Part shown: positions 35,070 through 39,945 of the stretch, in pieces
Layout: the number at the start of each line of letters is the position of its first letter
Numbering within the stretch: the stretch's first letter is position 1
NCBI GenBank assembly: GCA_902778375.1
Contig: CACYXJ010000003.1
Span: 1 to 64,000, forward strand
DNA: 64,000 nucleotides
From: an uncultured Erysipelotrichaceae bacterium
GTDB lineage: Bacteria > Bacillota_I > Bacilli_A > Erysipelotrichales > Erysipelotrichaceae
Direction of reading: 5' to 3'
The notes under the pieces: model-generated
The model's input: the letters and a program-made list of their open reading frames with translations, nothing else
The model's database searches: none
Told to the model about the DNA's origin: nothing
Made by a program: the position numbers and the translations under genes

Positions 35070-36317
35070 ATGAAAGAGTTCTGTCTGCTTCAGGAAGAAG
35101 AATACGCAAGGTTTCAGGAAACATCCGAGCTGCGCGGATTTCTGAATTCCAGGGAAGCAATCAAACTGAAGGAAATGAACGGCTGGGAAACGGAATATGC
35201 AGGCGTGAAGGAAGACGGCAGAATCATTGCCGCTACCCCGCTGACCTATATCCCGGTCATGAAAATATACAGGTTCTGCCATGCCCAGAGCGGTTTTCTC
35301 TGCGATTACCGTGACACGGAAACCCTGCGTTTTTTTACTGAGGAACTGAAGAAGTACCTTGCCGGCAGGAAGGTCATGTACATGATGATCAATCCCAACA
35401 TGAATTATCTGGAAAGGGATATGGACGGCAATCCGGTCGAGGGAGGATATGACAACAGCGATGTCATGAAGACGCTTCAGGAACTGGGTTTTGAGCACCA
35501 GGGATTCCCGACCGATTATTCCGCTTTCACGATGATCAGCTGGGTTTTCGCCATGAATCTGAAGGATAAGACCTACGAACAGGTGCTGAAGGAAATGGAT
35601 CAGCAGACCCGCTGGTCGGCCAACCGCACGCAGAAGCAGGGAATCCAGGTCAGAGAGCTGAAAGCGGACGAAATTGACAAGTTCATCCGTATGGAGGAGG
35701 AAACAGCCAGACGCCGCGGCTTTGAAATGCGGGAAAAGGATTTCTACCGCAACCAGCTGAAGGCGTACGGCGACCATGCAAAAGTTTTGCTGGCGTATCT
35801 GGATCTGAACGAATTCAAAAAGCGTCTGGCAGAGGAAAAGGAACAGCTTGAAAAGGAAATGGCGGAGATCGAAGCGAAACTGGCGGAAATGCCGGGCTCC
35901 AAAAAGTTCCAGAAGAAACAGAAAGTCGCACAGGAGGCATTGGACCTGAACGCGAAAAAACTGCAGGAAGCTCTCGAAGAAGAGGAAAAACACGGTTCCG
36001 TACTGGAAATGGCCGCATCCTTCTTCATTGTCTATGACAACGAGGCAGTTTATCTCTACAGTGCCGCCAACGACGAATTCCGCAAATATTACGCACCGTA
36101 TGCGATCCAGCTGGAAATGATCCGCTATGCCATCGACAATCATATTCCACGTTATAACTTCTACGGCATTTCCGGAAACTTCGACAAGGAGGCTTCCGAC
36201 TACGGCGTCTATGAATTCAAACGCGGATTCGGCGGACAGGTCGAACAGCTGCTGGGAGAATTCATCCTGCCTGTCAATAAAGCGGTATACAAACTTTACA
36301 AAACGGTCAAAAAGTAA
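35070..36317 (+). CDS. FemABX-type peptidoglycan bridge aminoacyltransferase
   Basis: 415 residues. Two GNAT-like domains with a helical coiled-coil arm (about 250-310, Glu/Lys-rich), the Fem layout. Conserved-looking segments are SANRTQKQGI, YNFYGISGNF and GVYEFKRGFGG. Uses aminoacyl-tRNA to add cross-bridge residues to lipid II. Start at ATG 35070 with GGAGG upstream. Fits the neighbouring murD-murI context. Confidence 0.92.
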   Translation: MKEFCLLQEEEYARFQETSELRGFLNSREAIKLKEMNGWETEYAGVKEDGRIIAATPLTYIPVMKIYRFCHAQSGFLCDYRDTETLRFFTEELKKYLAGRKVMYMMINPNMNYLERDMDGNPVEGGYDNSDVMKTLQELGFEHQGFPTDYSAFTMISWVFAMNLKDKTYEQVLKEMDQQTRWSANRTQKQGIQVRELKADEIDKFIRMEEETARRRGFEMREKDFYRNQLKAYGDHAKVLLAYLDLNEFKKRLAEEKEQLEKEMAEIEAKLAEMPGSKKFQKKQKVAQEALDLNAKKLQEALEEEEKHGSVLEMAASFFIVYDNEAVYLYSAANDEFRKYYAPYAIQLEMIRYAIDNHIPRYNFYGISGNFDKEASDYGVYEFKRGFGGQVEQLLGEFILPVNKAVYKLYKTVKK

Positions 36318-36346
36318 AATATCAGTCCTCCGGGACTGATATTTTG
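36316..36346 (+). terminator. Terminator after Fem gene
   Basis: 13-bp stem AAAATATCAGTCC with its complement, 4-nt loop. Confidence 0.82.
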
Positions 36347-36394
36347 CATTCTCTCTTGTTACAATAACGGTAACTCTCTGAAAAGGACTTGGTG

Positions 36395-38857
36395 ATGAAA
36401 TACGTAAAAAGTTTTTATCTTGATAAGGAAAAAGATATCATTGTGGACCTCTTTCGCGAAAAAGAGGAATTTCATTATGTTCTCAAGACACCTCATCACA
36501 GCACCGGCAATCTGATCCGCAATCTGGCAAGGCTGTGCGGTCTGCCGCTTTCCGAAGACGAAAACGGTCTGCTGGTGATCAGGGGAATCATTCCCTGCTA
36601 TATCGACGGCTATAACCGCAGGGTCTATGTTTTCCGGCTGGGCAATACGAAAGTCGCCAATATCTATCCTGACGGAACGGTGGAAATGAAGGCACAGGTG
36701 CCGTCCATCGCCAAGACGCTGATGAGCCAGACAAAGAATTACCGTCTCGGCGAACATGAGTCGATCGTCAAAACGTATATCCGCCGCGAGTGCAAATTCA
36801 CGACCGATCTGCATACGCATATGAATGCCAACCTGAATGCTGACATTCTGATTGCCCTCGGCATTTTCCACCAGATCCGTTATCCCTTGTACTACATAAA
36901 AAAGCTGGATCTCAAATGCACGGAGAAACAATGGAAGAAACTGCTGGAACGGCGGAAGAAGGCGGAAGAAAAACTGGCGGACTGCGGCCTGGAGGGAAAG
37001 TATCTCGAGCGCCGCATCGACGACAATACATGGATCAACTTCGCCGACCTGATCCTGAACAATCTGAAGAATGCCGCCTACAATATCGCCCGTATCCGCA
37101 TGTCGCTTTCGGTTCTGAAAGACGGTCAGGCGGTGTTTACCAATCTGGAAAAGGTCTATCTGTACCGCTATGTCTTTACCAAAGGCACATCCAGTGAGAG
37201 AAAGATCAGACTGAAAGACACTGAGAGGATCCCGGATGAGGACATTTCACGCGCGCTTTCGCAGATGCTTGCAGACGCCGGGGATCCCCGCTACGAAAAC
37301 AACACGCTTTTTCAGAACAAGCTGCTGTGGATTGCCCGCAGCTACCAGTCACGCGGCATCGTCTATGCCGAGATTTCCGACACCACCCTTGTCAAGGAAA
37401 ACGGTGCGGCACAGATGCTGCAGCAGGTGCATCAGGTCATGCCCGCCATTTATGCCGAGACCGGTGTCAGGCTGCGCTTCCTTGCGGCTATACGAAGAAT
37501 CCCGCTGACCATCGTAAAGGACCAGGTCGCGACAGATTACTTCCGTCATAATCTGAAAGTACTCAAGGCAGTCGCTTCCGACCCGTATGTGGCAGGCAGC
37601 GACATCCTGGGAGAAGAAATCAACGATATCCGCGATATCGCACCGGTAATCAGGGAAATTGTCAGAATCGCAAAGGATGTGCCGGGATATGTGATCCGTA
37701 TTCATGCCGGGGAAAACGACAGTCTGCGTGACAATGTCGCCAACAGTATCCACTGCGTCCGCGATGCTCTTGAGCCCGGTCAGCAGATGCCTTCGGTACG
37801 CATCGGACACGGACTCTATACAGCCAATCTTCAGAGTCAGAAAGGACAGGCTCTGATCAAAGCATTGAAGGAGACCGGTGCCGTGCTGGAATTCCAGATC
37901 ACATCGAATGTCAGACTGAACAACCTCAGCAGTATGAAAAACCATCCGCTGCGTACCTATCTTTCCTATGGCCTGGATTGTGTGCAGGGAACAGACGGCG
38001 GGGCATTATACGGAACTGATTCAATGGATGAACAGCTGGCGCTGGAGCGTTTTCTGGGACTGGGCATGGACGAAATGGTCCATATGAAAAAGAGCGAAAA
38101 CAAAGTTCTGGCAAAGGCAGAAAAGGCATTTGCCGAAAAAATGAATAATATGCCGGCAGTCTCTGACGTCAGGGATTATTACCAGCAGCGCATCGATCAT
38201 ACAGAAGCCGGACTGATCAGTGAAAAAACAGCTGACAGCCGGCTGATCTCGGAAGTTGTGCTGGCTGATCAGATCCGCTCCCTTCCGGAGGGCGGCTTGC
38301 CGGTCGTTGTTGCCGGCGGCAGCTTCAACAACGATAAACATGTCACAAAAGTCAGGAAGGAAGGACTGGAACTGATCGACGAACTGCTGGACAGCGGCGA
38401 TCCGAAGAAGATGTTCTTCCTGGTCGGCCATCATCTGACCGGTTACGAAAAGTATCTGATTGATCAGAACCGCGGCCGGTATCTCATCTATGCGATCGTG
38501 CCTAAAATGATCACTGCCCGCCAGGCGAAAGCCCTCAGGGAGAGCGGTCTGAGGATCCGGGTATCGATCGAAGTCTCGTCCATGGGCCTGTATAAGAGTT
38601 TTACCTATGAGATTTTCAAACGCCGCAAGGCAGTGCTTCTTGCCTTTGACGGCAACAGTGCCGGCGCGAATATGATCCAGGAAGTGAAAAACAGCCGCCG
38701 CAAGTCGCTGATCTATGTCAACAGAAGAAGCAGGGCTCTGAAGACCAAAGCAGCTTCCCTGCTGGGTTATGTCACGATGTTCATGCCGGAAACGGAAGGA
38801 GTCAGCGAAACCATTATCCGCTGTTCCTGTGAATTCCCTGATATCGAGGGGGAGTAG
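36395..38857 (+). CDS. Adenosine-deaminase-like protein with SLOG-like C-terminal domain
   Basis: 820 residues, about 2.4 times the length of a plain adenosine deaminase. Residues 1-125 are a separate alpha/beta region. Deaminase metal/catalytic motifs follow: H140 and H142 (DLHTHMNA), H437 and E440 (HAGE), H472 (IGHGL), D534 (GTDGG). The usual second Asp after D534 is Gly, so the base pocket differs. Residues about 630-790 form a Rossmann-like domain (VVVAGGSF, FFLVGHHLTGYEK, VLLAFDGNSAGAN) resembling SLOG/LOG nucleotide-binding folds. Start at 36395 with AAAAGGA 7 nt upstream. The radical-SAM gene starts 5 nt after its stop. Substrate unknown; roles in purine salvage or nucleotide signalling are both open. 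Confidence 0.72.
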   Translation: MKYVKSFYLDKEKDIIVDLFREKEEFHYVLKTPHHSTGNLIRNLARLCGLPLSEDENGLLVIRGIIPCYIDGYNRRVYVFRLGNTKVANIYPDGTVEMKAQVPSIAKTLMSQTKNYRLGEHESIVKTYIRRECKFTTDLHTHMNANLNADILIALGIFHQIRYPLYYIKKLDLKCTEKQWKKLLERRKKAEEKLADCGLEGKYLERRIDDNTWINFADLILNNLKNAAYNIARIRMSLSVLKDGQAVFTNLEKVYLYRYVFTKGTSSERKIRLKDTERIPDEDISRALSQMLADAGDPRYENNTLFQNKLLWIARSYQSRGIVYAEISDTTLVKENGAAQMLQQVHQVMPAIYAETGVRLRFLAAIRRIPLTIVKDQVATDYFRHNLKVLKAVASDPYVAGSDILGEEINDIRDIAPVIREIVRIAKDVPGYVIRIHAGENDSLRDNVANSIHCVRDALEPGQQMPSVRIGHGLYTANLQSQKGQALIKALKETGAVLEFQITSNVRLNNLSSMKNHPLRTYLSYGLDCVQGTDGGALYGTDSMDEQLALERFLGLGMDEMVHMKKSENKVLAKAEKAFAEKMNNMPAVSDVRDYYQQRIDHTEAGLISEKTADSRLISEVVLADQIRSLPEGGLPVVVAGGSFNNDKHVTKVRKEGLELIDELLDSGDPKKMFFLVGHHLTGYEKYLIDQNRGRYLIYAIVPKMITARQAKALRESGLRIRVSIEVSSMGLYKSFTYEIFKRRKAVLLAFDGNSAGANMIQEVKNSRRKSLIYVNRRSRALKTKAASLLGYVTMFMPETEGVSETIIRCSCEFPDIEGE

Positions 38858-38862
38858 GGCAC

Positions 38863-39945
38863 GTGTCAGTCAGACAGATCTCGATGATGATCAAACCTGC
38901 GTCAGCTTCATGCAATCTGCGCTGCCGTTACTGTTTTTATGCTGATATCAGTGAAAACAGAATGACGGCGACGAACGGCATCATGTCAGATGCGACAGCT
39001 GATCTGATCACTGCCCGCATCAACGAGGTGCTGCAGGGGGAGGGAATTGCCAGCATCAGCTTTCAGGGCGGCGAACCGACGCTTGCCGGTCTTGACTATT
39101 TCCGGCATTTTACCGAAACGATGAAACAGTATCCCGGAATCAGAACAGTTTATTCCCTGCAGACCAACGGCACACTGATCGATGAAGAATGGGCTGATTT
39201 CTTTCACGAGAATCATTTTCTCATCGGCATTTCCATTGACGGCTATCAGGCCAACATGGATCGCTGCCGTTTCGATGCCGATGGGAAAAGTGTATATTAC
39301 CGTGTCCTGAATACGGCGGAACTGCTGAAGAAAAAGAATGTTGAATTCAACATACTGACTGTTGTCACGAAGAAGCTGGCTGCGCATACCAAAGCCTTGA
39401 TGAAGTTTTACACTGATCATCATTTTCAGTACGTGCAGCTGATACCGTGTCTGCCGCCATTGGCTGTTGCCGATGATTCCGAAGCTCTCAGTCCGAAGGA
39501 ATATGCGCAGTTTTTTAATACCTTCTTTGATGAATGGATCAGAAAGATGGAGAAGGGGAAACTGATGAGCGTCAATCTGTTCGACAATCTGTTTGAAATG
39601 GTCCATGGCAGAATACCTTATCAATGCGGCATGCTCGGACGATGCACTGTGCAGTTTGTCATTGAATCCAACGGTGACACCTATCCCTGCGATTTCTGGT
39701 GCCTGGACGAGTATCTGATGGGCAACCTTCATGACATGTCTTTTGAACAGCTGCTGCAGGGCGATGCCGCAAAGACATTCATGGCGACAGACAGCTGTAC
39801 GAAAAATCCATGTCAGGAATGCCCGTATCTCAGGATGTGCAACGGCGGCTGCCGGCGTCAGAATGTCTGTTATCTGAATGACGATTTCTGTGCATACCGG
39901 ATGGTTCTCGACCATGTGCTGCCGTATATTTCCCGTCTGGGCTGA
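38863..39945 (+). CDS. SPASM-domain radical SAM enzyme (anaerobic sulfatase maturase-like)
   Basis: 360 residues. Radical SAM CxxxCxxC at residues 18-25 in ASCNLRCRYC, SFQGGEPTL downstream, and a C-terminal cysteine-rich SPASM part (CDFWCLDEY, NPCQECPYLRMCNGGCRR). Closest in style to anaerobic sulfatase-maturating enzymes, which form formylglycine, but the family also modifies peptides. No sulfatase is nearby. GTG start with GGGGGAG about 8 nt upstream, inside the end of the deaminase-like gene, so the two are co-expressed. Confidence 0.85.
   Translation: MSVRQISMMIKPASASCNLRCRYCFYADISENRMTATNGIMSDATADLITARINEVLQGEGIASISFQGGEPTLAGLDYFRHFTETMKQYPGIRTVYSLQTNGTLIDEEWADFFHENHFLIGISIDGYQANMDRCRFDADGKSVYYRVLNTAELLKKKNVEFNILTVVTKKLAAHTKALMKFYTDHHFQYVQLIPCLPPLAVADDSEALSPKEYAQFFNTFFDEWIRKMEKGKLMSVNLFDNLFEMVHGRIPYQCGMLGRCTVQFVIESNGDTYPCDFWCLDEYLMGNLHDMSFEQLLQGDAAKTFMATDSCTKNPCQECPYLRMCNGGCRRQNVCYLNDDFCAYRMVLDHVLPYISRLG

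Follow-up and report, generated by a model that had tools for sequence, protein, structure and literature searches.

ADA-SLOG, a large unnamed family of gut bacterial deaminase-like proteins with a substituted active site and a SLOG-fold domain

A 64,000-nucleotide stretch of the genome of an uncultured Erysipelotrichaceae bacterium (positions 1 to 64,000 of contig CACYXJ010000003.1, assembly GCA_902778375.1; hereafter the window) encodes an 820-residue protein in which an N-terminal domain and a C-terminal SLOG-fold domain flank a TIM barrel of the adenosine deaminase (ADA) type. The protein belongs to a large unnamed family of gut bacterial species, many of them from the rumen, which we refer to as ADA-SLOG. 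Its members share the three domains, the ADA fold with its metal-binding and catalytic residues, altered substrate contacts and the SLOG fold; their genes have no conserved partners, and their tree conflicts with taxonomy. We tentatively read ADA-SLOG as a stand-alone, horizontally spread zinc deaminase of a phosphorylated purine whose SLOG domain would provide a second nucleotide site, an interpretation to which we give somewhat less than an even chance.

The active site and the SLOG domain point to nucleotide chemistry unlike that of a textbook adenosine deaminase, in at least 526 gut species. Its substrate, once known, would either bring to light a purine-nucleotide pathway abundant in gut microbes, largely those of ruminants, or add a single-gene form independent of CRISPR to the growing class of regulated nucleotide deaminases that includes RADAR and Cad1. 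We found no curated family model for the enzyme, and no description of an ADA-SLOG fusion in the literature outside subscription-only papers. The gene and its domains are laid out as follows.

36395..38857, + strand: ADA-SLOG gene, an ATG to TAG open reading frame for the 820-residue three-domain deaminase-like protein
36395..36703, + strand: N-terminal domain, residues 1–103, with the motif FYLDKEKDI (predicted secondary structure, conservation)
36770..38137, + strand: ADA-type TIM-barrel deaminase domain, residues ~126–581 (Pfam, alignments, fold search)
38291..38794, + strand: SLOG-fold domain, residues ~633–800 (structure model, fold search, conservation)

The ADA domain and its substituted active site

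A_deaminase (PF00962; E 1.3e-12) was the only Pfam domain to exceed its gathering cutoff in the protein, and the features of that family are present: the TIM barrel, the HxH, HAGE and GHG motifs and the metal-binding Asp. Residues H140, H142, H437, E440, H472 and D534 are invariant in 63 aligned members, implying that the zinc site and the catalytic Glu and His are intact; an earlier note on this DNA had described an 820-residue reading frame with ADA metal and catalytic motifs, and both frame and motifs are confirmed. A full-length AlphaFold2 model (mean pLDDT 87.7) matched ADA-family structures over residues ~119–581 with Z values up to 26.5. With the family at large (PF00962; ADA, ADAL/MAPDA, AMP deaminase and ADGF) the protein shares the barrel, the zinc ligands, the catalytic Glu and His and the HPL and SN motifs, but it differs in its length of 820 residues, its two extra domains, the replacement of Asp19 by Asn and of Asp296 by Gly, and its identity of 14–19% to solved members in structural alignments. 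Among NCBIfam models, those for adenosine deaminase alone matched, far under their cutoffs, with the equivalog model TIGR01430 reaching 38.3 bits against a cutoff of 216.55.

The two replaced aspartates are the canonical substrate contacts of ADA. In a HMMER alignment to Salmonella ADA, N144 occupies the position of Asp19 (TDLHTHMNANL against TDIHRHLDGNI) and G535 that of Asp296 (GTDGG against NTDDP). The former is Asn in 62 of the 63 members and the latter Gly in all 63, both contacts being replaced family-wide; the Gly that the earlier note had seen in place of the second Asp is thus real and general. Asp19 of ADA binds the 5'- and 3'-hydroxyls of the adenosine ribose, and the ATP deaminase Cad1 has Gly for Asp19 and Asn for Asp296 (PMC12669630); according to work cited in the same article, substituting the Asp296 residue of mouse ADA severely impairs activity. 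Human ADAL acts on nucleoside monophosphates only and not on nucleosides, and its Asn28, two residues after the second metal ligand His26, is among the residues that check the 5'-monophosphate (PMC11349198).

N144 lies exactly at the Asn28 position, following the second metal His by two residues, a feature shared with human ADAL and plant MAPDA (N6-methyl-AMP deaminase). The Foldseek search, too, ranked human ADAL first (E 1.3e-9); several ADAs equal it in Z, and the ADA domain of Cad1 superposes at Z ~22–23. ADAL differs in being a monomer of ~350 residues with neither the N-terminal nor the SLOG domain and is not known to share the Gly at the Asp296 position. Judged from the aligned residues, the substituted active site would fit a substrate other than free adenosine, a conclusion the family-wide replacements support, and N144 together with the comparison to Cad1 and ADAL suggests a phosphorylated purine.

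A conventional view would make the protein a canonical adenosine deaminase with decorative domains, standing in for a missing Add. It is indeed the sole ADA-family protein found in the window's genome, but Asp19 and Asp296 are both lost, the score of 38 bits lies far from the 216.55 of the equivalog cutoff, and canonical ADA and ADA-SLOG occur together in many genomes, which makes this view quite improbable.

A distinct SLOG subfamily at the C-terminus

Residues 608–820, folded alone, gave a model with a pLDDT of 93.5. Its best fold matches were Moco-carrier proteins, DprA and the TRPM MHR1/2 domains (TRPM2/4/8), at Z 11–13 over 150–190 residues; LOG and PpnN were among the matches listed, and the VIA list was headed by 6y01 (Z 13.3) and HpDprA (Z 12.9). 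As these are proteins of the SLOG superfamily, the SLOG assignment is right, and the SLOG-like fold surmised in the earlier note is borne out by a separate model and a fold search. A viral structure library returned weak matches only. Toprim, for which 22 of 57 members had sub-threshold Pfam matches, was dropped as a candidate fold, the fold search being consistently SLOG.

The likeness to the superfamily (DprA, LOG, Moco carrier, TRPM MHR1/2, ThsA) lies in the predicted fold, whereas no sequence relation to the Pfam SLOG models or the LOG profile was detectable. Neither Pfam nor NCBIfam SLOG models matched the domain; the LOG catalytic motif PGGxGTxxE is absent, with DGNSAxAN at the predicted strand end instead, and a LOG profile aligned with an hhalign probability of 0.3%. 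Invariant pocket residues are S643-F644, G678, E685, P703, Y733-K734-S735, G753-N754, N759, Q762 and N766. With no model match, no LOG motif and no profile similarity, the domain forms a SLOG subfamily of its own, marked by these pocket residues. Across 167 genomes it never occurred outside the long ADA-SLOG protein, other than in pieces of that protein that were broken or lay at a contig edge. A LOG-type glycosidase was rejected as an identity for the domain because the motif is missing and there is no profile similarity.

The extra N-terminal region reported in the earlier note is a real part of the family: its ~103 residues are as conserved per column (0.76) as the ADA domain (0.74), and it is predicted to be mostly beta with one helix. 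Sequence searches gave no match in Pfam or among PDB sequences; residues 1–128, which would correspond to the N-terminal CARF domain of Cad1, likewise matched nothing there, in a comparison made at the sequence level, and the region may yet prove to have a known fold.

The combination of a nucleotide-binding Rossmann-type domain with an ADA domain recalls enzymes in which a signal controls the destruction of nucleotides, such as Cad1 (CARF-ADA, ATP to ITP) and ThsA (SIR2-SLOG), whose SLOG is its signal-binding domain (PMC11204291). By analogy, the SLOG domain of ADA-SLOG could sense a nucleotide signal and switch on the ADA domain to spoil a nucleotide pool, making the protein a signal-gated effector of nucleotide depletion. 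In keeping with this, the same two aspartates are lost in Cad1, where Gly and Asn take their places. Cad1 differs in that its CARF domain is N-terminal and of another family, and in its CRISPR linkage, ADA-SLOG being a solitary gene.

Family, distribution and history

In a whole-genome search of the order, 94 of 295 genomes had a relative at E <= 0.001, and ~75 of the 295 had the full ADA-SLOG family, counted from strong matches that are not canonical ADA. Its members are 49–80% identical over essentially the whole length, typically 795–850 residues long, and always contain all three domains. A single-sequence scan of genome contigs found no relatives, whereas an alignment-based scan did, and the profile scan, with one genome per species, placed relatives in at least 526 species. 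The nearest 80 of these came from Erysipelotrichaceae, Lachnospiraceae, Ruminococcus/Oscillospiraceae, Coriobacteriaceae and Atopobiaceae. Elsewhere ADA-SLOG is rare: apart from the genome of the query itself, one genome among 299 in the phylum of Lachnospiraceae carried it, and not one among 296 in that of Coriobacteriia. No copy turned up in collections of viruses, phages and plasmids, where weak matches to the ADA part were all that was seen, and we rejected the idea of a phage or plasmid cargo gene. Two family members (G119:C63 and G190:C73) have an in-frame stop in or beside the match, and G038 (contigs C45 and C72) has an extra C-terminal fragment at a contig edge; decay or assembly error could account for either.

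In a tree of 86 sequences, the clade of the window's protein nests among Lachnospiraceae (SH-aLRT 98 for the 21-row set), and a single Erysipelotrichales clade is rejected (p-AU 0.004). The conflict between tree and taxonomy, together with missing synteny, indicates that the gene has spread horizontally.

Most of the nearest 80 of the at least 526 relatives bear ruminant gut or rumen sample names in their record titles, a habitat signal confined to these 80 and drawn from a genome collection rich in ruminant genomes. The signal bears on a special case of the phosphorylated-purine reading, in which ADA-SLOG would act like ADAL in the salvage or detoxification of N6-substituted AMP, either N6-methyl-AMP or the nucleotides of plant cytokinins, which are abundant in the rumen. 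The match of Asn144 to ADAL Asn28, the rank of ADAL in the Foldseek search and the digestive-tract origin of most near relatives are in line with it, as is a weak co-occurrence with a cytokinin-type LOG gene: a survey of 59 genomes from the order found the two together above expectation (5 of 8 carriers, compared with 4 of 51 others; Fisher p 0.001, a value that ignores phylogeny and belongs to a test picked afterwards). However, the Asp296 equivalent is Gly, the habitat signal carries the bias just described, and the co-occurrence test was unplanned; we regard N6-substituted AMP as a rather unlikely substrate. A LOG-type phosphoribohydrolase gene is present in the window's own genome (contig C35, L178:93-647).

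Gene neighbourhoods and the question of defence

Across 62 deaminase loci, no neighbouring gene family turns up in more than 5. The 102 flanking proteins matched diverse metabolic and housekeeping families in Pfam; their PADLOC matches were generic or single, with single matches to the WYL and Csa3 models, and no core cas model of a type III CRISPR neighbourhood was among the matches listed for them. No PADLOC family matched the deaminase itself at E <= 1, RdrB of RADAR included, and no RdrA AAA+ ATPase lies beside it in the window, where the neighbours are FemAB-like, radical SAM and phosphoglucose isomerase (PGI) genes. RADAR membership was rejected on these two grounds. RdrB resembles ADA-SLOG as an ADA-family enzyme with large additions, but ADA-SLOG has neither RdrA nor an RdrB HMM match, and its addition is a SLOG domain rather than the shell-forming insertions of RdrB.

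The earlier note had remarked that no ATPase partner is present, which holds for the genes next to the deaminase in the window, and no neighbour is conserved across the 62 loci. Its suggested link to nucleotide-signal conflict systems does not fare as well: with no RdrB model match, no conserved neighbour, no defence enrichment and no phage or plasmid copies, a defence role of ADA-SLOG is not supported. The same facts weigh on the signal-gated effector proposed by analogy with Cad1 and ThsA. Its patchy, horizontally spread gene would suit such a role; against it, there is no conserved partner gene that could make the signal, the flanking genes are a mixture of metabolic and housekeeping ones, viral, phage and plasmid collections hold no copy, and the gene, very highly conserved, occurs in roughly one in four of the genomes sampled from the order. 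An effector of this kind therefore seems very improbable to us. One version of the analogy dispenses with a genomic partner: in gut anaerobes ADA-SLOG could be a counterpart of Cad1 and ThsA encoded by one gene, whose SLOG domain would sense a nucleotide signal and turn on the deamination of an essential nucleotide pool. We see only a slim chance that this is so.

A proposed stand-alone deaminase of a phosphorylated purine

We return to the reading of ADA-SLOG as a stand-alone nucleotide deaminase. In this scheme, an ADA-family zinc hydrolase would deaminate a phosphorylated purine nucleotide, or remove an N6-amine, and would not act on free adenosine; the C-terminal SLOG domain would hold a second nucleotide-type ligand and either gate the deaminase or act on its product, for instance by splitting the N-glycosidic bond. 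The protein would then serve metabolism as an accessory enzyme, passed between gut Firmicutes and Coriobacteriia. Zinc chemistry is proposed from the invariant residues and the fold, and the possible role of the SLOG domain from its predicted fold.

Several points weigh against this scheme. With Gly in place of Asp296, the N7 contact of ADA is gone, and the protein could in consequence deaminate only weakly or use something other than an adenine nucleotide. A SLOG domain without the PGGxGT motif of LOG makes a glycosidase role doubtful. Replacement of canonical ADA was considered and rejected, as there is no clear mutual exclusion across the order and many genomes carry both. The tree, finally, was built by a quick method from sequences that come mostly from metagenome bins.

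The adjoining radical-SAM gene

The gene order in the window is FemAB-family (femX-like), hairpin, deaminase, radical SAM and phosphoglucose isomerase, with the following elements around the deaminase gene.

36314..36347, + strand: terminator-like hairpin of 15 pairs in the gap that follows the femX-like gene and precedes the deaminase gene
38847..38854, + strand: ribosome-binding-site-like sequence AGGGGGAG of the radical-SAM gene, within the end of the deaminase gene
38863..39945, + strand: SPASM radical-SAM gene, anaerobic sulfatase-maturase-like, 360 residues, GTG start (open reading frame, models)

The hairpin is strong and bidirectional. As it separates the femX-like gene from the deaminase gene, the latter probably opens its own transcription unit. 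The radical-SAM reading frame begins (GTG, 38863) 5 nt past the deaminase stop, and the spacing and the ribosome site inside the deaminase gene described in the earlier note are both as it had them.

Such tight spacing would suit a two-gene system in which the deaminase is modified or used by the adjoining enzyme, and the earlier note had spoken of the two as coupled. Adjacency is indeed found throughout one subclade of four genomes, the window's and three relatives whose deaminases are 77–80% identical, but in none of ~60 other family loci. Radical-SAM relatives occur in 38 of 70 genomes of the genus at E 1e-40; in six genomes (G150, G202, G215, G199, G230 and G156) the orthologue is present and the deaminase was not found, and in G187 the two lie on different contigs. 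As this case shows, two genes may lie close together in a given genome through a recent accident. A functional coupling is not supported: a two-gene system is scarcely credible and already largely refuted. We judge the radical-SAM gene to be an accidental neighbour, functionally untied to the deaminase, whose gene may have been inserted upstream of it in the window's genome. The earlier note's pairing of a SLOG fold with gene adjacency in relatives has thus fared unequally, the fold being upheld and the adjacency not.

The description of the enzyme as sulfatase-maturase-like is sound: it is a SPASM radical-SAM protein nearest to anaerobic sulfatase-maturase models and slightly below their cutoffs, a near miss in the case of TIGR03942 (325.9 against 349.45 bits). 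That it comes without a sulfatase is true of its neighbourhood but not of the genome, since another contig (C15, L165:1042-2556, − strand) encodes a 504-residue sulfatase with a CVPSR formylglycine signature. This sulfatase, a plausible and ordinary substrate for a maturase, again speaks against a two-gene system, and the simplest view is that the radical-SAM enzyme matures it. The protein may belong to a genus-specific branch, and a second radical-SAM paralogue is encoded elsewhere in the window's genome (G000:C53:14048-15070).

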